Shown: one piece after another, positions 7,519 to 51,460 of the stretch | Layout of the letters: the number at the start of each line of letters is the position of its first letter | Position numbering within the stretch: the first letter of the stretch is position 1 | Assembly: GCF_013033515.1 (NCBI RefSeq) | Contig: NZ_WQEG01000001.1 | Span: 248,001-312,000, forward strand | From: Ruegeria sp. HKCCA6707 | GTDB lineage: Bacteria; Pseudomonadota; Alphaproteobacteria; Rhodobacterales; Rhodobacteraceae | DNA length: 64,000 bases | Direction of reading: 5' to 3' | Translations under genes and position numbers: made by a program | The notes under the pieces: generated by a model | What the model was told of the DNA's origin: nothing | Seen by the model: the letters and a program-made list of their open reading frames with translations, nothing else | The model's database searches: none

Positions 7519-8427
7519 TCAAGCTGGTTCCAGACTTGCCTTGGCCTCGTCTAATATCCGTTTGGCCTCGGATCCTTGTAGTTTCTGGATGTCATCCTGG
7601 TATTTCAGGATCGCGCCCAGCGTGTCGCCGATCACCTCGGGGCTGAGGTTCATGACATCAAGGGCGAGCAGGCATTTGGCCCAGTCGATGGTTTCGGCCA
7701 CGCCCGGTTTCTTGAACAGGTCTTCGGTGCGCAAACGCTGGACAAAGGCCACAACCTCTCGGCTGAGGCTTTCAGCGGCTTCGGATGCGCGGGCGTGCAG
7801 GATTGCGATTTCGCGTTCGAAATCGGGGTAGTCGACCCAGTGATAGAGGCAGCGACGTTTCAGCGCGTCGTGGACTTCGCGGGTGCGGTTCGAGGTGACG
7901 ATCACGATCGGAGGTTCTGGCGCTTTGACGGTGCCAAGCTCGGGGATCGTCACCTGAAAATCACTGAGCGCTTCGAGCAGGAAGGCCTCGAACGGCTCGT
8001 CAGTGCGGTCAAGCTCATCGATCAGTAAAACCGGCGCGCCGTTTTCATCCGGGCGCATGGCTTGCAGCAAGGGACGTTCGATCAGGTAGTCATCTGAGAA
8101 CAGCTCGTCCTGCAGAGCAGCCCGGTCGGCCCCGCCAGAGGCTTCGGCTGTGCGAATGGCCACCATCTGTGCGGGGAAGTTCCATTCATAGACCGCCGAG
8201 GACGCATCCAGACCTTCGTAACATTGCAAGCGGATCAGTTGGCGGTTCAGACCGGCGGCCAGAGCCTTGGCGATCTCGGTCTTGCCGACACCAGCCTCAC
8301 CTTCCAGAAACAGCGGGCGGCCCAGTTTGAGCGACAGGAACACAACCGTCGCCAGGGCGCGGCCACAGACATAGCCTTGCGTTGCCAGCATCTGCTGGAC
8401 CGCATCGATGGAATTTGGCTGCGTCAT
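7519..8427 (-). CDS. coxD: MoxR-type AAA+ ATPase CoxD
   Basis: A 302-residue MoxR-family AAA+ ATPase. Walker A GEAGVGKT is at residues 43-50, Walker B LLIDELD at 134-140 and sensor 1 at IVTSNRTREVHDALKRR. The start at 8427 was chosen because AGGAGG lies 5 bases upstream and the family begins close to the first helix; a longer frame upstream adds 33 unconvincing residues. CoxD-type ATPases act with VWA partners, here coxE two genes downstream, as chaperones for metal-site assembly in CO dehydrogenase. Confidence 0.93.
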   Translation of the reverse strand: MTQPNSIDAVQQMLATQGYVCGRALATVVFLSLKLGRPLFLEGEAGVGKTEIAKALAAGLNRQLIRLQCYEGLDASSAVYEWNFPAQMVAIRTAEASGGADRAALQDELFSDDYLIERPLLQAMRPDENGAPVLLIDELDRTDEPFEAFLLEALSDFQVTIPELGTVKAPEPPIVIVTSNRTREVHDALKRRCLYHWVDYPDFEREIAILHARASEAAESLSREVVAFVQRLRTEDLFKKPGVAETIDWAKCLLALDVMNLSPEVIGDTLGAILKYQDDIQKLQGSEAKRILDEAKASLEPA

Positions 8428-8590
8428 GGATCCTCCTGCCCTGTTATCGGCTAAAAGGTCATGCCGCTGCACGGGCGTCAAGACCTTGGCCTGCCTCAGA
8501 GCTACGCTGGCTGCGTGCAGAGGCAAGTTTTTTGTCGGGTCAGGTCTGCGGTTGGTTGGTCTTTTGCCGCAGCTGTGCTAGCGCAGGCCC

Positions 8591-9628
8591 ATGACCGATA
8601 GCCTGACACTCCGCCGTCCCGACGACTGGCATTTGCACCTGCGCGACGGCGCAATGTTGCAAGCCGTTCTACCTGAAACCGCGCGCCATTTTGCCCGTGC
8701 GATCATCATGCCTAACCTTGTTCCACCAGTGGTGCGAGGCGATCAGGCCGCCGCCTATCGTGACCGTATTCTGGCCGCCCTGCCCAAAGACATGTCGTTC
8801 GAGCCGTTAATGACGCTTTATCTGACCGAGGACACCGATCCCGAAGATGTGGCTGCGGCCCATGCCAGCGGGTTGGTCAAAGCGGTCAAGCTGTACCCGG
8901 CGGGGGCGACAACAAACTCGGCCTCGGGCGTGCGCGATTTCAACAAGGTGCGCCCGGTGCTTGAGAAAATGGCCGAGATCGGTCTGCCCATGTGTGTTCA
9001 TGGGGAGGTCACCGACGCAGAAGTCGACATCTTTGACCGTGAAGCGGTGTTCATTGACCGCGTACTGGACCCGATCCGCAGATCCACCCCGGGCCTGCGT
9101 GTGGTGATGGAGCATATTACCACCTCAAACGGTGTGGAGTATGTCAAAGCCAACGCGACCGATCTGGGGGCGACGATTACGGCGCATCACCTGATCATCA
9201 ACCGCAACCATATCCTGGTTGGCGGGATCAAACCGCATTATTACTGCCTGCCTGTTGCCAAGCGCGAGGAGCATCGCTTGGCCCTGGTCGCGGCGGCGAC
9301 CTCGGGCGATGCGCGGTTCTTTCTGGGCACTGACAGCGCGCCTCATACCGATGACAACAAGGAAATGGCCTGCGGCTGCGCGGGTTGTTTCACTGCGACC
9401 AATACCATGTCGCTGGTGGCCGAGATGTTTGACCGGGCGGATGCGCTGGACAAGCTGGAAGGGTTTGTGTCGCTCAACGGGCCTGGGTTTTACAGATTGC
9501 CGGTCAATGAAGACACCATCACCCTGTCCAAAGGTGCGCCGGTCGAATATCCGGCCAAGATCGAGTCTGGAGACGGGCCCGTCACCGTGTTCGACCCGGG
9601 CTTTCCCCTGCATTGGCGCGTGGTCTAG
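8591..9628 (+). CDS. pyrC: Dihydroorotase, class II (PyrC)
   Basis: Catalyses reversible cyclisation of N-carbamoyl-aspartate to dihydroorotate in pyrimidine synthesis. It is 345 residues, the normal class II length. Zinc-binding H14 and H16 are in the HLHLRDG motif, and the predicted carbamylated lysine is K99 in [13 protein letters not shown]. Further metal histidines occur in MCVHGEV and TAHHL, and the catalytic aspartate in LGTDSAPH. It is divergent from coxD and converges with the MmgE/PrpD gene, the two stop codons sharing CTAG (4-bp overlap). Confidence 0.97.
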
Positions 9629-31047: not shown

Positions 31048-31890
31048 TCAGACTTTCAAGTCGTCTGCACAAGGAATGTACCCCACATATCCCCCCTGAT
31101 CTAATAGCCGGGTTTGCGCCCCTAGACGCCAGTAGAGCTTGCGAGTTGCAGCCCGAAGTTCCCGGCGCACACGAAACCAGGCTGGGCCCTTGTCCAATCC
31201 GCTGTTGGTCTTGATATCCTGTGTTCGCTCACTGGCGGCGACGGGTGCTTCGACTTCGGTTTGGCTGGCCGACCAGATCATTTGAACGCCAACTGCGGGA
31301 AAGCACTGATACATGCGCCAACCCGGACGCGGCAGCGAGACGAAATCATCCAAATGGTCCGAATAGCTTTCCGACCAACCCAGCAGTTTACGACACGCCT
31401 CTTGCGACACCACGTAGGCTGCCGCGCTTGGCGCCATTTCCAGCATGGGGCGCACCACAATCGATCCGATGGTTGTCTCAGCACCGAATCGCAAGGATCG
31501 CGGCGAATAGTCAAGCTTTACAAAATCGAATTCAGATGGATTGCGCAGAAGTTCTGTTATCACAGCGCCCGCGCCTGCTGACATTTCCACATCATCTTCG
31601 AAAACGGCAACAGCCGGTGCATCGCGCTCGAGCGCTTGCCGCCAAACCAGGCGGTGACTTTCGAAACAGGCTATTTCGCTGCGTTTCAAGCCCCAGCGGG
31701 TGCCGGTTCCGGGGACATAGCCGTTTTGATCCAAAGCAGCGTCCTGACCCGCATCAATCGCTCTGACCCGATGGGCGCTGTTTAACCCTGCCCGAGCGAA
31801 TTGCGTCTCCATGAAACGTTTGCGCGCCGGGACGCGATCAAGATTGATATAGTGCACAAAGTCCCCAGGTTCTTCGATGACATGCTGCAC
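31048..31890 (-). CDS. Glycosyltransferase family 25 (LPS type)
   Basis: A 280-residue glycosyltransferase family 25-like protein. The N-terminal VHYINLDRVPARKRFMETQF segment, the central SEIACFESHRLVWRQAL and the acidic AVFEDDVEMS match the family's nucleotide-sugar and EDD regions. Members add galactose or similar sugars to lipopolysaccharide. The start is a GTG at 31890 with AAGGGG 7 bases upstream. It is divergent from the eight-histidine membrane protein; the 287-bp region between them is AT-rich. Confidence 0.82.
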   Translation of the reverse strand: MQHVIEEPGDFVHYINLDRVPARKRFMETQFARAGLNSAHRVRAIDAGQDAALDQNGYVPGTGTRWGLKRSEIACFESHRLVWRQALERDAPAVAVFEDDVEMSAGAGAVITELLRNPSEFDFVKLDYSPRSLRFGAETTIGSIVVRPMLEMAPSAAAYVVSQEACRKLLGWSESYSDHLDDFVSLPRPGWRMYQCFPAVGVQMIWSASQTEVEAPVAASERTQDIKTNSGLDKGPAWFRVRRELRAATRKLYWRLGAQTRLLDQGGYVGYIPCADDLKV

Positions 31891-32177: not shown

Positions 32178-33236
32178 GTGACCGACGCATCGCTTCCGAC
32201 CCGCACCTATGCCGAGCTTCCTTGGCTCAGAAACGCACGCTTTGATACCGGCTTCATTATCGGGCTGCTGGCCCTGTCCTGTATCACAGGCGCCGTGGTA
32301 CTGATCGAGCCGTCATTGTTCTATCCGATACTGGTTATCGATCTGTGGTTCCTGGGCTATCACCACGTGATCGCCACCTACACGCGCATCTGCTTTGACA
32401 AGCAAAGCTATGCCGAGAACAAGAACATGTTGTTCATCCTGTTGCCACTCGTGGTCGTCGGCACTTTGGGCGTTGCGTGGGTCTTTGGCCTCTGGGTCAT
32501 CGTAACGATCTATTTCTATTGGCAGTGGTGGCACTATGCCCGTCAGAGCTGGGGCATTTCGCGCGCCTATCGCGGCAAGGATCCGCAGGCGAAATACGAA
32601 GATGGTTGGCTGGATCAGGCGATTTTCTACGCGCTGCCGATCTTTGGCATCCTCAGTCGCTCTGCCGAGCAGCAGCCAACATTTATTGGGCTAGAGCTGT
32701 GGTCAGCGCCGGTTCCGCCGCAAGTTGCTGCAATCGCCGGATATATCACTCTTGCCCTTCTGGCCTATTGGGTCGTTGCCCGCGTCATGGCGGCGCGCGA
32801 AGGGCGTCTGGCCATCGTTCATTCGATGTATATGCTGTCGCATTTTGCGATCTTCTATCTGGCCTATGTTGGCACCAGTGACATCACGATCGGCTGGCTG
32901 ATGATCAACATCTGGCACAACGCGCAGTACATCCTGTTCGTCTGGATGTTCAACGTCAAACGCTTCAAGGACGGCGTGGATCCCGATGCCAAGTTCCTGT
33001 CCTATATCTCGCAGCCACAGCGGTTGTGGCTCTATCTTCTGACCTGCATCGTGATCACCGGCGTGGTGTATTGGGGCGTTCTGCGCGCCATCGACTGGGT
33101 GTTCTTTGCCGGTCTGTCGGCCACCATCGTTCTCTATCAGATCGTGAATTTCCATCACTACATCGTGGACAGCAAGCTGTGGAAAATGCGCAAGCCGAAA
33201 ATCCGCGAAACGCTGGATCTGAACACGCAAGGCTGA
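32178..33236 (+). CDS. Polytopic membrane protein with eight histidines, function unknown
   Basis: A 352-residue protein with roughly 8-9 hydrophobic segments. Histidines cluster in or at membrane edges: H62-H63 (YHHVIATYTR), H119 (QWWHYARQ), H215 and H222 (HSMYMLSHF), H247 (IWHNAQY) and H326-H327 (NFHHYIVDSKLW). Eight histidines are also the hallmark of membrane di-iron desaturases and hydroxylases, but the spacing differs, so this is not a standard desaturase. Start is a GTG at 32178 with GAGGA eight bases upstream. It is followed after 4 bp by a flippase-like gene and then a GT-C gene, suggesting envelope lipid or glycan work. Confidence 0.85.
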   Translation: MTDASLPTRTYAELPWLRNARFDTGFIIGLLALSCITGAVVLIEPSLFYPILVIDLWFLGYHHVIATYTRICFDKQSYAENKNMLFILLPLVVVGTLGVAWVFGLWVIVTIYFYWQWWHYARQSWGISRAYRGKDPQAKYEDGWLDQAIFYALPIFGILSRSAEQQPTFIGLELWSAPVPPQVAAIAGYITLALLAYWVVARVMAAREGRLAIVHSMYMLSHFAIFYLAYVGTSDITIGWLMINIWHNAQYILFVWMFNVKRFKDGVDPDAKFLSYISQPQRLWLYLLTCIVITGVVYWGVLRAIDWVFFAGLSATIVLYQIVNFHHYIVDSKLWKMRKPKIRETLDLNTQG

Positions 33237-33240
33237 TCCG

Positions 33241-34233
33241 GTGGAAACCGTCCAGCTGCCGTCCAAGGACAGCGCGTCCCCCGAGGGGTCGCGCTTTCCT
33301 GGCGCAATTTTCGGATCTCCATCCGGCGCGTCGGGGTCATCAGTGACAGACCCGCGTCACGCCCGTAAACGCGCCCTTCTGAGGGTATTCAGCCTGATCC
33401 TCTTGCTGGGGATCGCCGCCAGCCTGATCGATCTGTCCGAGGTCTGGGTACGCCTGCGCGCTATACCGATTTGGATCTTTGCGGTGATGGTTGCCATTCA
33501 GGCCGGGATCGTTTTGATCCTGTCCTGGCGCTTTGCCATCCTGGCCCGCTCAGTTGGTGCAGATCTGCGCCTGAGTGAAGCCACGCGACTGACCTTTTTG
33601 ACCACGTTGGGCAACCTGCTGCTGCCCACCGGCTTGGCGGGCGATGCCGGGCGTGTGCTCTTGGTGCGCAAATACGGGTTGAGCCTGAGCACAGCCATGG
33701 CGGTTGGCGTTTTTGATCGCATCATCGGACTTGCTGCCTTGGGTGCCATCGTTCTTGTTGGCGCCATCGCCGCCGCATCCATCCTGCCAATCTATGTTGC
33801 CCTTGCCGCCTTTGTCGTGCCGACAACGATCACGGTCGCGATCCTTATCTGGTGGCAACGTAGTGCGAAAAACAAAGCGGCTCTGGGCCCGGCGTTCCTA
33901 TCTGTGGCAGGGCTGTCCGCGGCCCTGTCCATCTTTGCTCATCTCGCCTCCATCCTGATCGCTTACCTGTTTTTTCTGGAACAAGGGGCTCCGGTTGGGT
34001 TCTTCGGGGTTTTGGTGCTGTTTCCCGCGGTCTTGCTGGCCGCGACGCTACCGATTTCAGTTGGAGGCTGGGGAACGCGGGAATTCGCTGCCGCCGCAGC
34101 CTTTGCCACCATTGGGGTCGAGGCCCCAACCGCCATTGCAATGGCGGTGATCTTTGGCCTGTCGCAGGCCGTGGCCGCAGCTATCGGCTCGGCTGCAACA
34201 ACCCTGTTTTCTCAGACTGACGCAGCCCGGTGA
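33241..34233 (+). CDS. Lysylphosphatidylglycerol synthase TM-like flippase (UPF0104 type)
   Basis: A 330-residue polytopic protein of the LPG synthase transmembrane (UPF0104/AglD-like) type. A cytoplasmic basic N-terminal segment precedes about eight helices. The conserved segments are LPTGLAGDAGRVLLVRKYG near the middle and LPISVGGWGTREFAA near the C-terminus. Members move or handle polyprenol-linked or aminoacyl lipids. It starts with a GTG 4 bp after the eight-histidine gene and its stop overlaps the next gene's GTG start (GTGA). Confidence 0.85.
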   Translation: METVQLPSKDSASPEGSRFPGAIFGSPSGASGSSVTDPRHARKRALLRVFSLILLLGIAASLIDLSEVWVRLRAIPIWIFAVMVAIQAGIVLILSWRFAILARSVGADLRLSEATRLTFLTTLGNLLLPTGLAGDAGRVLLVRKYGLSLSTAMAVGVFDRIIGLAALGAIVLVGAIAAASILPIYVALAAFVVPTTITVAILIWWQRSAKNKAALGPAFLSVAGLSAALSIFAHLASILIAYLFFLEQGAPVGFFGVLVLFPAVLLAATLPISVGGWGTREFAAAAAFATIGVEAPTAIAMAVIFGLSQAVAAAIGSAATTLFSQTDAAR

Positions 34234-35921
34234 TCGCGCGACACCCTCATATGGCAGGGGTACTCCTGAGCCTGATGTCGGTCGCGTTGATGTTGTTTTT
34301 CTACCATGATCTGTTCTGGTGGCCGGTGGATGAAGGCGTTTACGCCTACATCGCGCAGCGCATGAATGCCGGGTACATTATCCACAAGGATATCATCGAT
34401 CTGCATGCCGGTTACGGCAACCTGCTGAACGCCTGGGCCTTTCGCCTGTTTGGTGAGGACCTGCTGAGCCTGCGCTATCCTTTGATCGCAATCACGCTGG
34501 TGCAGAGCATCATCGCCTACATCCTTCTCGCATCGCGGGGTCCTTTCGTCGCCTGTGTGGGCGGCATTGCCGTTGCGGCCTTTTCCTTTGTGCAATTCCC
34601 GAACCCCAGCGCAAATTGGCACGCCTTGGGCTGGTTCTTCGTTCTGGCCTTGTGCCTGGAAAAGCTGCGGCCGGGGTCCATGCTGCGGCTGTTTCTGGCA
34701 GGCCTTCTGGTCGGCATGTGTTTCTTTACCCGCCAGCTCAGTGGTGTTTTCCTGGCCTTGGGACTGATCTGCGTCTTGCTGGTTGAGGCCCCAAAGGAAC
34801 AGGACAATCCACGAGGTCCGGCCTTGCTGATCGGGGCCATCGCAAGCCTTGGGCTGATCCTCTATGTAGCGACCAAAGATCAGCTTTCGGCCTTTCTCTG
34901 GGCCGGTATCTGGCCTTTGGGCCTGCTGATCACGGCAATGCTGACTGCACGGTTTTCTTGGGGATATGCCGGACGCACCGTGATGTTGGTTCTAGCCGGG
35001 TTTCTGATCGCCGGGCTTCCGCTGGCGATATCAAACCTTTCAAAGGACGCTTTTGGATTCTGGCTCAACGACATGTTGTTTTCGGCGCTGTCGATCCACG
35101 GGCAGGATTTCATCGCACAGGCCAGCTTTTGGAACCTGCTGCAAATGGCGTGGCAGGGTATGCTTTCGGGTGCTGGTCTGGTGGCATCGCTATCCGGTCT
35201 GGCTTGGATCTTTCTGATCCTGACCGTTCCGGCCCTTGGGATTATAGTGAACCGCGATGTGACGCATGTTCAACGCTGCTCACCCACCGCTATTTTGGCC
35301 GTGTTTTGGGCCATCGGCGCTCTGCACTATCAGATCCCGATCTACCTGATGTTTGTCCTGCCCGCGGTGTTGTGCGCGCTGCTGATCTTGCGCGGCACCT
35401 TTGCGCTGTCGGTGATCGTGCTGGCCGTCGCGCTTTGGGCGATTGCGTTTCAGGCCGGTCAACCGGTCGAGCGTGGTTTGACCGGTATCATTGCAGGTGA
35501 ACGGCGCGGCCCACCGGTCCGGGCAGAACTGCCCGGTGTCAGCCTACGGCTGATGCCCGATGACATAGCGGATTTCGAAACCCTGCTGAAAGAACTTGAA
35601 CGCACAGGCTCAGATGACGCTCACCTGATGACCATTCCGGTCGAGCCACAGTTGTACTTCATGACAAATCGCACACCGCCCGTGCGCTATTTCTCGACAG
35701 CCATGGGATTGCTAAGTGACGCCGATGTCACCAACACGATCACCGCGCTGGACGAGGCCGCTCCGCTAAACGTGGTGAACCGAAGGTTTGACAAATACCT
35801 GACCCCGCTCAGCGCGCAGCTTCTGGATCACGTGAAGGCACACTCCGAAGCTCCGTTTCAGGTTGGTCCGTTTGACGTCTACCGCTATGCGCCAGAGGCC
35901 GCATCGACGTCCGCTCCCTAA
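34230..35921 (+). CDS. GT-C-type membrane glycosyltransferase-like protein
   Basis: A 563-residue protein with about 10-12 membrane segments and a periplasmic C-terminal domain. The N-terminal WPVDEGVYAYIAQRMNAG segment carries acidic residues in the first periplasmic loop, as in GT-C (dolichyl or polyprenyl phosphate-sugar) transferases. A donor lipid-sugar could be made by the GT2 protein on the opposite strand. Starts at a GTG overlapping the flippase gene. Its last 113 bp overlap the 3' end of the convergent GT2 gene. Confidence 0.82.
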   Translation: MIARHPHMAGVLLSLMSVALMLFFYHDLFWWPVDEGVYAYIAQRMNAGYIIHKDIIDLHAGYGNLLNAWAFRLFGEDLLSLRYPLIAITLVQSIIAYILLASRGPFVACVGGIAVAAFSFVQFPNPSANWHALGWFFVLALCLEKLRPGSMLRLFLAGLLVGMCFFTRQLSGVFLALGLICVLLVEAPKEQDNPRGPALLIGAIASLGLILYVATKDQLSAFLWAGIWPLGLLITAMLTARFSWGYAGRTVMLVLAGFLIAGLPLAISNLSKDAFGFWLNDMLFSALSIHGQDFIAQASFWNLLQMAWQGMLSGAGLVASLSGLAWIFLILTVPALGIIVNRDVTHVQRCSPTAILAVFWAIGALHYQIPIYLMFVLPAVLCALLILRGTFALSVIVLAVALWAIAFQAGQPVERGLTGIIAGERRGPPVRAELPGVSLRLMPDDIADFETLLKELERTGSDDAHLMTIPVEPQLYFMTNRTPPVRYFSTAMGLLSDADVTNTITALDEAAPLNVVNRRFDKYLTPLSAQLLDHVKAHSEAPFQVGPFDVYRYAPEAASTSAP

Positions 35922-36825
35922 CAATAAAGTCGGGTCGGCGCTTTACCTCTTCATAGATCTTGGCGATGTAAATCCCAATGATGCCCAACCCGATCATCAA
36001 GATTGAGGCAACGATGATCTGCAGCAAGATAACCGTGGTGAAACCCGGAACAGCGGCGCCTGTGATCCACAGCCACAAAGTTCGAAGGCTGAGCGCGACA
36101 GCCAAAAGGCCAAACGCTCCGCCCAGAAACGTCATCAAATGCATCGGCGTGGTGCTGAACGACACGATCGAGTCGAGCGCCAACCGCAGCAATTTGGTCA
36201 TCGACCACTTGCCTTCACCTGCATTGCGCGGCGCAACGGTGAACAGGATCGTGTCCTGCTCGAACCCGACCCAGGCAACCAGCCCGCGATAGAACCGCTC
36301 GCGCTCGGGTAAGGCGATAAGGCAATCGACAATCTCGCGATCCAGCAGTTTGAAATCCGCCGCATTGCCCACATCCATCCCGGCCAAAGCAAAGAACAAT
36401 TTGAAGTAGCATCGTGTCAGAAAGGCCTTGATCGGACCTTCCTCTTCACGGTTTTCCTTGACGGTGTTCACCACCTTGGCGCCCGCCTGCCATTTCCTGA
36501 ACATCTCACGGATCAGTTCGGGCGGGTGCTGCAGATCGGCGTCAATGGTTACGACCGCGTCCCCGCGCGCTGCCTCAAGCCCCGCCGCGATAGCAGCTTC
36601 TTTTCCAAAATTGCGCGACAGGCGCACGCCGTGAATGTCACTGTGCTGTGTGGACAGTTGTTGAATGACCTGCCACGTACCGTCCGACGAGCCGTCATCG
36701 ACCACAATGAACTCAACAGCACACAGATCTTCGGTATGGCCGCGAATGACCGTCAAGCTCTCTTGCAGCCCTTCAGCCTCGTGATGGGCCGGGATAATAA
36801 TGGACAAGAGGATATCAGCGCGCAT
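35809..36825 (-). CDS. Polyprenyl-phosphate glycosyltransferase, family 2 (GtrB/DPM-like)
   Basis: A 338-residue GT2 enzyme with a C-terminal membrane domain. The GT-A domain has VVDDGSSDGTWQV and the metal-binding TIDADLQHPPEL, then the acceptor-side FKLLDREIV and RGLVAWVG. Two C-terminal membrane helices follow (LMTFLGGAFGLLAVALS, and TTVILLQIIVASILMIGLG). The type transfers a sugar from UDP or GDP to undecaprenyl phosphate. The last 37 residues (after FIVRER) are basic and lie antisense to the C-terminus of the GT-C gene. Confidence 0.9.
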   Translation of the reverse strand: MRADILLSIIIPAHHEAEGLQESLTVIRGHTEDLCAVEFIVVDDGSSDGTWQVIQQLSTQHSDIHGVRLSRNFGKEAAIAAGLEAARGDAVVTIDADLQHPPELIREMFRKWQAGAKVVNTVKENREEEGPIKAFLTRCYFKLFFALAGMDVGNAADFKLLDREIVDCLIALPERERFYRGLVAWVGFEQDTILFTVAPRNAGEGKWSMTKLLRLALDSIVSFSTTPMHLMTFLGGAFGLLAVALSLRTLWLWITGAAVPGFTTVILLQIIVASILMIGLGIIGIYIAKIYEEVKRRPDFIVRERTSMRPLAHSGRRQTDQPETELRSVPSRDPEAAR

Positions 36826-37070: not shown

Positions 37071-37160
37071 TGGCGGAGAGACAGGGATTCGAACCCTGGA
37101 GACGGTTTCCCGCCTACACACTTTCCAGGCGTGCGCCTTCGACCACTCGGCCACCTCTCC
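37071..37160 (-). tRNA. tRNA-Ser (anticodon GGA)
   Basis: A class II tRNA of 90 nt on the minus strand, including an encoded CCA. The acceptor GGAGAG pairs with CTCTCC, the T-arm contains GGTTCGAATCC, and the anticodon loop reads CTGGAAA with GGA as the anticodon, decoding UCC/UCU serine codons. A long variable arm is present, as expected for serine tRNA. tRNA-Ser genes are frequent integration sites, but I see no integrase near it. Confidence 0.93.
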
Positions 37161-50413: not shown

Positions 50414-51460
50414 ATGGGACTTTTTATATTAAGGCGGGTCGGGATCATGCTGCTGACAGCATTGTGCCTGACATTCCTGGTATTTTACCTGACCAATCTA
50501 TATCCCAACCTGGAAAAGCTTGCGAAGACGCAAGGCAACTTCCGCATGTCGGACGAACAGGTTGAAAGCTTTCTTGAAAAAGGCGGCTATCTGCAATCGA
50601 CACCTGTGAAATACGGCGAATGGCTGGGCGTTCTGCCCTCGTATCGGCACACGAACGAGGATGGAACGGTTCAGGGACGTTGTATTCTGCCTGGCCAAAC
50701 GGCGGAAGAATCTCCGAATTTCTGTGGCATCCTGCAAGGATACTGGGGCTACTCCACTGTCTTCAAAGAAGAGGTCTCGACCGTTGTTGGCAACCGCCTG
50801 GCCCTGACCGGGCGGCTGATGTTCTGGGTCATGCTACTGATGGTTCCGTCTGCGCTGATCCTGGGCATTCTGGCGGGTATGAAAGAAGGCTCGGCCACCG
50901 ACCGGACGCTGTCGACCTTTGCCATCACAACGACGGCGACGCCGGAATATGTCTCGGGCGTGATCTTTATCGCGATCTTCACATCATCGGCGGTGGGTTT
51001 GAAATGGTTCAAGGGGACCGCCACGCAGGCGATGGAAAATCCGACTTTCGAGAATTTCTTCTTACCCGTGCTCACCATTGCGCTTTACGGGATGGGCTAT
51101 ATCGCCCGAATGACCCGCGCTTCGATGACCGAGGTGATGACCGCGCAATATATCCGCACCGCGCGGCTGAAGGGCGTGTCTTTCCCCAATATCGTCATGA
51201 AACACGCGCTGCGCAACGCGCTGATCGCCCCCTTCACCGTCATCATGCTGCAGTTCCCATGGCTGCTGAATGGTGTGGTGATCGTCGAGACCCTGTTTAA
51301 CTACAAGGGGTTTGGATGGGCTCTGGTGCAAGCGGCGGGCAACAACGACATTCAGCTTCTGCTGGCGATTTCGGTCGTGTCGGTCTTTGTGGTTCTGGTG
51401 ACGCAGCTGATCTCGGATATCGGCTATGTCTATCTGAACCCACGTATCCGCATTTCATAA
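50414..51460 (+). CDS. ABC transporter permease, DppB type
   Basis: A 348-residue inner-membrane permease with the binding-protein-dependent transport signature. The N-terminus MGLFILRRVGIMLLTALCLTFL is the first helix; a periplasmic loop of about 100 residues follows; the conserved cytoplasmic EAA-like loop is RTARLKGVSFPNIVMKHALRNALIAPFTV. AACAGGGGC precedes the ATG. It pairs with the next permease 13 bp downstream. Confidence 0.93.
   Translation: MGLFILRRVGIMLLTALCLTFLVFYLTNLYPNLEKLAKTQGNFRMSDEQVESFLEKGGYLQSTPVKYGEWLGVLPSYRHTNEDGTVQGRCILPGQTAEESPNFCGILQGYWGYSTVFKEEVSTVVGNRLALTGRLMFWVMLLMVPSALILGILAGMKEGSATDRTLSTFAITTTATPEYVSGVIFIAIFTSSAVGLKWFKGTATQAMENPTFENFFLPVLTIALYGMGYIARMTRASMTEVMTAQYIRTARLKGVSFPNIVMKHALRNALIAPFTVIMLQFPWLLNGVVIVETLFNYKGFGWALVQAAGNNDIQLLLAISVVSVFVVLVTQLISDIGYVYLNPRIRIS

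Follow-up and report, generated by a model that had tools for sequence, protein, structure and literature searches.

The window, by which we mean the whole 64,000-nucleotide stretch of DNA analysed, comes from a marine Roseobacter-type bacterium. The locus under study is a set of four genes, the first of which encodes the protein that we call the core protein:

32178..33236, plus strand, core protein, a polytopic membrane protein of 352 amino acids with a GTG start.
33241..34233, plus strand, flippase-like membrane protein, PF03706 / TIGR00374 (PF03706 E = 3.8e-31).
34230..35921, plus strand, polytopic protein of 563 amino acids, presumed GT-C glycosyltransferase from gene order and from homologues beside core genes in loci L003, L004 and L182.
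35809..36825, minus strand, polyprenyl-phosphate GT2 glycosyltransferase (PF00535 E = 2.6e-30).

The gene layout described in the initial annotation was reproduced throughout. The flippase ORF begins at 33241, four bases past the stop of the core gene, and the ORF of the 563-aa protein starts at 34230 within the flippase stop, giving the reported GTGA overlap. The GT2 ORF is convergent with the 563-aa ORF, and their tails overlap by 113 bases. Profile searches confirm the PF03706 match of the flippase-like protein and the PF00535 match of the GT2 protein. NCBIfam scores under the family cut-offs were obtained for the GT2 protein with PgfS (E = 2.2e-68) and with ArnC (E = 6e-42), and in the PDB it matches sll0501 (E = 3.2e-67) and ArnC (E = 8.2e-39) over about 300 residues each. 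The GT-C label is presumptive. For the 563-aa protein neither Pfam nor NCBIfam gave a family at E <= 1, and its best PDB match is an exonuclease at E = 0.24; on the other side are gene order and the analogous place being held by a PMT_2-type transferase in L008 and an Alg9-type transferase in L013. A tRNA-Ser gene is located just past the four-gene set.

Translation of ORF 32178-33236 gives exactly eight histidines, H62, H63, H119, H215, H222, H247, H326 and H327, at the positions first reported. We judge the number eight unremarkable by itself. What exceeds chance is the invariance of these residues: all eight are conserved across 18 aligned homologues, an alignment with 97 invariant columns out of 352 (P = 2.7e-5). 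In an alignment of 29 divergent superfamily rows, H63, H119, H247, H327, Q123, G126, Q250, Y251 and W335 are invariant, and D331 is kept in 28. H62, H215 and H222 occur in only 8, 7 and 10 of the 29 rows, mostly within the window's clade, and therefore eight is not the family number; H326 also varies in the wider superfamily, to a lesser degree. The histidines of this previously undescribed superfamily are H63, H119, H247 and H327.

The core protein matches no Pfam family at E <= 1 and has no convincing match in NCBIfam or the PDB. The same three collections gave no convincing match for 18 superfamily members, and no paper on the family was found in the part of the open-access literature covered. 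A viral collection gave no relative with alignment A1 and one, L054, with the superfamily alignment A3, and a plasmid collection gave none for the window protein or for L054. For all counts, L094 was left out as spurious and L028/L019 because their gene order is that of L007, and L018 and L020 were counted as L024 and L025.

Two AlphaFold2 models of the core protein have pLDDT values of 74.5 and 66.9, and both fall below 50 at residues 307-352, a stretch that includes H326 and H327. The first model predicts about ten helices, and alignment hydropathy alone gives only six merged hydrophobic segments. The charge pattern is consistent with an N-in/C-in topology, with the caveat that the K/R content of outer loop 162-182 (1.17 per sequence) equals that of the weakest inner loop, 61-77. 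Foldseek searches with the model of pLDDT 74.5 found no match in the PDB (best E 1.7) or among viral models (best E 1.9). The best VIA-align partner is sensory rhodopsin II (Z 6.2, rmsd 5.5 over 164 residues), in a range that indicates a common arrangement only.

A link to a known family came from profile comparison with the Brp/Blh beta-carotene dioxygenases (PF15461). Global alignment of the whole superfamily with eight Brp/Blh sequences scored 23.75 (P 1.6e-4, 262 columns), against up to 22.9 for rotated profiles, in which the true order is largely kept. The seven most divergent members scored 37.8 (P 4.5e-7, probability 87%, 251 columns), this subset having been picked after the fact as the one strong case of four profile subsets tried. 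None of 165 reversed or block-shuffled profiles of the divergent set reached 37.8 (best 20.8), and six other membrane families scored 8.6 or less in the same comparison; NnrS, considered as a relative, was rejected with a global score of 5.0 over 10 columns. In both global alignments H63, H119, H247 and H327 pair with histidines of Brp/Blh, and Y251 pairs with the second His of the HxxxH motif. A profile built from five divergent members recovers the window protein in its own genome at E 2.1e-24, which ties the bridge group to the core protein.

Other forms of the comparison gave lower signals. Local alignment of the superfamily with Brp/Blh reached a probability of 1.6%, and the local score (22.4 for Brp/Blh, 23.8 for FA_desaturase) does not discriminate, 3 of 60 block-shuffled profiles reaching it. 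With only three Brp/Blh sequences in the profile the probability was 0.1%. Neither the window's clade alone (global 4.2) nor the PHF-type clade alone (global 6.2) gave a significant score, and both alignments were out of register. At the level of single sequences most superfamily members were inseparable from 41 other membrane proteins: of the first six Brp/Blh sequences, two outscored the whole set of 41 controls locally and one did so globally, two further ones fell in the control range, and a Brp/Blh profile placed none of 33 superfamily members above all controls. PF15461 itself was not matched by the window protein (E <= 1), by 18 members (E <= 1) or by nine further or divergent members (E <= 10). 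Remote homology to Brp/Blh is moderately supported.

Replacement of Blh His21, His78, His188 and His192 by Ala reduces activity to below 5% (PMC9227343). By motif order the first three correspond to H63, H119 and H247, the studied Blh sequence itself lying outside our alignment, and the equivalent of His192 is Tyr (Y251) in all 29 rows. No full-length phytoene synthase match was found in 6 of 17 clade genomes, that of the window included. The window genome has one PF00494 match, of 87.6 bits over half of the profile. Matches of about 60-88 bits span about half of the profile in this way, and we take them to be the NDUFAF6-like group. A carotenoid substrate for the core protein is unlikely, because one histidine of Blh is replaced by an invariant Tyr and the genome has no full-length phytoene synthase match; native beta-carotene cleavage was set aside on the latter ground.

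Of the 26 loci of the window's clade, 23 have a decorating module no more than 7 kb from the core gene. Acyltransferase-3 (AT3) is found in 11, in one case as a fragment, while six loci have a Dlt-like operon and six have glycosylation genes; the remaining three (L024, L025 and L045) have no module. Cultured carriers include Yoonia vestfoldensis DSM 16212, with AT3, and Shimia gijangensis DSM 100564, with glycosylation genes. The Dlt-like module is an ACP/adenylation/MBOAT/SGNH operon with an extra sulfotransferase-like gene. AT3 and Dlt-like MBOAT-SGNH systems have been reported to acylate extracytoplasmic acceptors (PMC12148441, PMC9833829, PMC12423673). The window's own gene set accounts for four of the six glycosylation loci. 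It is also present in L003 and L004 (both Roseobacteraceae) and, reordered, in L182, which belongs to another family of Alphaproteobacteria and shows identities of 44% for the core protein and 31%, 33% and 50% for the others. L008 carries a second, unrelated glycosylation set beside the core gene, composed of a GT2, a PMT_2/TPR protein and GtrA. Preservation of the four-gene arrangement among relatives is mixed: 4 of the 26 clade loci have the same set, and among the other 22 loci, 19 carry another kind of module, whole or in part. These alternative partners strengthen the connection with envelope lipid or glycan decoration that was proposed from the window alone.

Placed on the tree, the 23 labelled rows require at least seven module switches. 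Loci outside profile building also gave matches, to AT3 in L083, L086, L183 and L006 (the last a fragment) and to GT-C, GT2 and flippase in L182. Control stretches totalling 800 kb from two genomes yielded no match to AT3, MBOAT, SGNH, flippase, GT-C or sulfotransferase, and two matches each to GT2 and adenylation. None of the three modules was complete in the 26 other superfamily loci.

The analysis establishes the superfamily, its invariant residues, the module association and the module switching, and we infer the metal, the oxygenase chemistry, the substrate and the order of steps. Our tentative proposal, which we hold at somewhat less than even confidence, is that the core protein is a membrane metallo-oxygenase-like enzyme of a Brp/Blh-related superfamily that modifies a non-carotenoid envelope lipid as the acceptor for the neighbouring machine. 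H63, H119, H247 and H327 would probably bind a metal, iron or another, that lies buried in the part of the membrane nearer the cytoplasm. The enzyme would oxidise or otherwise modify a membrane or envelope lipid, and the product would serve as extracytoplasmic acceptor for the transmembrane decorating machine of the adjacent genes. In the window, the GT2 would put a sugar on polyprenyl phosphate, the flippase would carry the loaded carrier across the membrane and the GT-C protein would pass the sugar to the acceptor. In relatives, the AT3 or the Dlt-like ACP/adenylation/MBOAT/SGNH operon would be the machine instead.

The core protein could alternatively be a metal-dependent enzyme other than an oxygenase (a hydrolase, isomerase or group transferase) acting on the same envelope acceptor in the style of CREST, which we consider unlikely. 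Membrane hydrolases, too, are marked by three to four histidines together with an invariant acidic residue, and the His to Tyr change relative to Blh may signal a different chemistry. CREST hydrolases have three His, one Asp and one Ser in SxxxH and HxxxH motifs (PMC3146951). Neither motif is present in the core protein, with L59 in place of Ser before H63 and with H247 followed by Y251, a Tyr in 29 of 29 rows. CREST is set apart by these motifs alone, outside the profile comparison, in which Brp/Blh was the sole link found.

It is likewise improbable that location explains the association, with variable envelope loci near mobile regions gathering genes of this kind and the core protein acting independently. 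None of the 24 congeners has the core gene, and its occurrence in the family is patchy, at 6 of 394 genomes when its own genome and two distant homologues are counted; the tRNA-Ser gene and the three loci that have no module point the same way. Against this are the tight spacing (4 bp here) and the overlapping ORFs in L044 and L081, as well as the recurrence in several families and the rarity of such genes in the control stretches.

Still less probable is that the core protein lacks catalytic activity and, as a scaffold or acceptor-binding subunit, offers the acceptor to the adjoining machine. For some GT-C systems a second protein that recognises the acceptor has been suggested (PMC8035078), and the core stays constant while the machines change. 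However, a set of invariant polar residues inside the helices (four His, two Gln and a Tyr) typically belongs to a catalytic site, and none of the modules is complete in the 26 other superfamily loci.

An eight-histidine di-iron desaturase or hydroxylase with altered spacing, the likeness drawn in the initial annotation, is hardly credible: the eight histidines are invariant within the window's clade and the local FA_desaturase score is as high as that to Brp/Blh, but there is no HX3-4H or HX2-3HH box among histidines 62, 63, 119, 215, 222, 247, 326 and 327, no PF00487/PF04116 match (FA_desaturase or FA_hydroxylase), variation at H62, H215, H222 and H326 with a family number other than eight, and a global score to FA_desaturase of 5.5 over 12 columns.

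The metallo-oxygenase-like reading has a wider form, which we regard as possible and on balance rather doubtful. The superfamily would be a new group of membrane-embedded metallo-oxygenases, sister to Brp/Blh with a Tyr in the metal motif, whose substrate would be an envelope lipid that needs neither carotenoid nor hopanoid synthesis. Within one clade the core would be fixed, and caps (sugar, acyl, aminoacyl/sulfate) would be swapped by exchange of the whole machine. To our knowledge, Brp/Blh enzymes are known only for carotenoid cleavage. A wide group of their relatives in genomes that have no full-length phytoene synthase match would, if true, mean that the fold performs other membrane chemistry. 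Three known kinds of machine exchanged around one constant protein point to a common envelope acceptor, which should be findable since lipids of strains with the same core and different modules can be compared.

Among known systems, fatty acid desaturases and hydroxylases resemble the core protein in being polytopic and histidine-rich, with eight histidines in the window's clade, whereas the core lacks histidine boxes and has a different family-level invariant set. Brp/Blh shares the motif order and rough spacing, (P/H)H, H(F/Y), H-x-x-x-(H/Y) and (P/H)H, and in global profile comparison it aligns in register over the full length with the superfamily and with its divergent members. It differs in having the second His of HxxxH where the core superfamily has Tyr, and the core gene has no rhodopsin neighbour among the genes scanned around it. 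The Dlt-like MBOAT-SGNH and AT3 systems appear here as alternative partners of the core, in 6 and 11 of the 26 clade loci, whereas the covered parts of PMC12148441, PMC9833829 and PMC12423673 assign no role to a Brp/Blh-like protein. Three-component transmembrane glycosylation (GT-A/GtrB-type, flippase and GT-C) also modifies LPS and O-antigen in the periplasm (PMC8035078). The three neighbours of the core gene in the window, a GT2, a putative flippase and a presumed GT-C transferase, resemble such a system, and L008 has its classical GT2, PMT_2 and GtrA form. In contrast to that form, the window has a PF03706 protein where GtrA would be, and the systems described here have an extra histidine membrane protein as their constant partner.

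The window (G000:C1:248001-312000) belongs to a genome of 4.54 Mb. The four genes that the initial annotation had grouped around an eight-histidine membrane protein were confirmed at the coordinates listed here, together with other features of the window.

32178-33236, +, histidine protein (352 residues, polytopic)
33241-34233, +, flippase-like protein
34230-35921, +, presumed GT-C protein
35809-36825, -, GT2
31048-31890, -, glycosyltransferase family 25 (LPS type), divergent from the histidine protein gene
37071-37160, -, tRNA-Ser (GGA), directly past the four genes and possibly an island boundary
51037-51215, -, Ruegeria cis52 sRNA, full-length Rfam match (148 bits)

Against Pfam and NCBIfam the histidine protein gave no hit at E <= 1, and against PDB sequences none at E <= 10. 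Scans of 18 superfamily members against Pfam and NCBIfam gave a best match of only E 0.0066, and a profile of the 18 matched no PDB chain.

The gene is absent from all 24 congeners compared. A family-level search matched 6 of 394 genomes, counting its own genome and two distant homologues, and a sequence-pattern search of 84,980 species genomes, whose reach is limited to close relatives, found 16 loci. Profile searches matched 12 of 398 genomes in the phylum, 23 of 385 in the class (one judged spurious), and 3 of 13 and 4 of 16 in two further families of Alphaproteobacteria. A profile built from five divergent members alone recovered the window protein at E 2.1e-24; therefore the divergent members are true relatives. 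The near-identical loci L011, L012 and L017 are divided in their assignment between Bryobacterales (Acidobacteriota) and Alphaproteobacteria, which would reflect mis-binning or recent transfer. Genome G495 has two copies of the superfamily gene, a single MAG contig (L014) holds one member of window type and one of PHF type (1623-2597 and 7998-9038), and another PHF-type member lies on a contig from a viral collection (L054). A COX15/CtaA gene in the same orientation lies upstream of a divergent member (L092:6225-7337), separated from it by a 107-aa frame.

Partner genes were sought within 7 kb of the core gene at 26 loci of the window's clade, using profiles trained on part of these loci; matches at L006, L010, L013, L017, L083, L086, L182 and L183 fall outside the training set.

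Partner modules at loci of the window's clade
Flippase, GT-C and GT2 (glycosylation): window, L003, L004, L182
GT2 with unrelated GT-C types (glycosylation): L008 (with GtrA), L013
Dlt-like operon: L002, L009, L010, L011 (stops at the locus end before MBOAT), L012, L017
Acyltransferase-3 (AT3): L005, L006 (fragment), L007, L014, L015, L016, L044, L081, L083, L086, L183
No module: L024, L025, L045

Some loci are near-identical and hence not independent (L009/L010, L012/L017). L008 and L013 come from the same MAG, and the PMT/TPR and GtrA genes of L008 have homologues in L013. The Dlt-like operon comprises sulfotransferase-like, adenylation, SGNH-like and MBOAT genes and a small frame whose WDSL/WDSM motif we take to be ACP-like; in a domain scan of L002 only, the SGNH/AlgX match was weak (E 0.0032). 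Dlt-like operons with the extra sulfotransferase-like gene occur here in Gram-negative bacteria (L002:9213-14070, L012:9094-14114, L017:9121-14141). At its GT2 end the glycosylation set is extended by a methyltransferase gene at L003:12656-13537 (-), where it is PF13489, and at L004:5403-6446 (-), where the gene belongs to the same cluster; this cluster has no member in the compared window stretch.

A control of 800 kb from two genomes contained no AT3, MBOAT, SGNH, flippase, GT-C or sulfotransferase match, and two GT2 and two adenylation matches. Another 26 superfamily loci, L184 and L185 among them unaligned, gave one weak AT3 match (L048, E 5e-12, two genes off) and adenylation matches in three (L026, L090, L092). 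On a tree of the 26 clade proteins, where long branches make some deep placements unsure, the three module states need at least seven changes among 23 labelled rows.

As described in excerpts of the sources, AT3 and MBOAT-SGNH proteins transfer acyl groups (PMC12148441, PMC9833829, PMC12423673), and three-component systems transfer sugars (PMC8035078), to extracytoplasmic acceptors. The three kinds of module have the membrane side in common, not the donor, and possibly the acceptor. The constant histidine protein is therefore best placed as a candidate for making or modifying this acceptor.

An alignment of 18 homologues from the window's clade has 97 invariant columns out of 352, and these include all eight histidines (P = 2.7e-5 by chance). 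Among 29 divergent rows, H63, H119, Q123, G126, H247, Q250, Y251, H327 and W335 never vary, D331 is kept in 28 and H326 in 25, and H62, H215 and H222 in 8, 7 and 10, respectively. The working set thus shrinks from eight histidines to four, with H326 in addition. The lysine and arginine counts, for which the helix positions of model 1 were used, agree with a ten-helix protein that has its N and C termini in the cytoplasm: these residues are common in loops 1-19, 61-77, 130-143, 200-213, 258-280 and 334-348, intermediate in 162-182, and scarce in 44, 104, 231-236 and 301-308. This topology would place H63 and H327 towards the cytoplasm, with H119 and H247 about mid-membrane, depths compatible with one buried site, short of proof.

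The superfamily was compared with eight sequences of the beta-carotene 15,15'-dioxygenase family Brp/Blh (PF15461), two of which are plasmid-borne and adjoin bacteriorhodopsin genes. Global profile alignment scored 23.75 (P 1.6e-4, 262 columns), against maxima of 7.97 for reversed profiles (65 rotations) and 16.1 for block shuffles (60), and up to 22.9 for rotated profiles in true order; the local score was not distinctive. The seven most divergent members, a subset picked after the fact, reached 37.8 in the global comparison (P 4.5e-7) and 36.5 in the local one, more than any of the 165 nulls or of six other membrane families. No signal came from profiles of the window's clade (4.2) or the PHF clade (6.2) taken separately, and single sequences mostly did not separate from 41 control membrane proteins. 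Weak partial PF15461 matches under the cut-off (25 and 22 bits) occur at L101 and L102, whose genomes belong to the same family as holds PHF-type members. Judged from these alignments, the link to Brp/Blh is likely, not proven.

Phytoene/squalene synthase was scanned for in 19 genomes, 17 of them with a window-type core. Full-length matches above 200 bits were found in 11 of the 17; the other six, the window's own included, gave partial matches only (31.7-87.6 bits), and in these a home-made carotenoid is unlikely as the substrate. The core enzyme may work like Blh, in which, according to an excerpt of a review (PMC9227343), alanine in place of His21, His78, His188 or His192 leaves < 5% activity. 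In the global profile alignment of the superfamily with Brp/Blh, H63, H119, H247 and H327 stand opposite Brp/Blh histidines, and the second histidine of the Brp/Blh HxxxH motif shares its column with Y251 of the superfamily.
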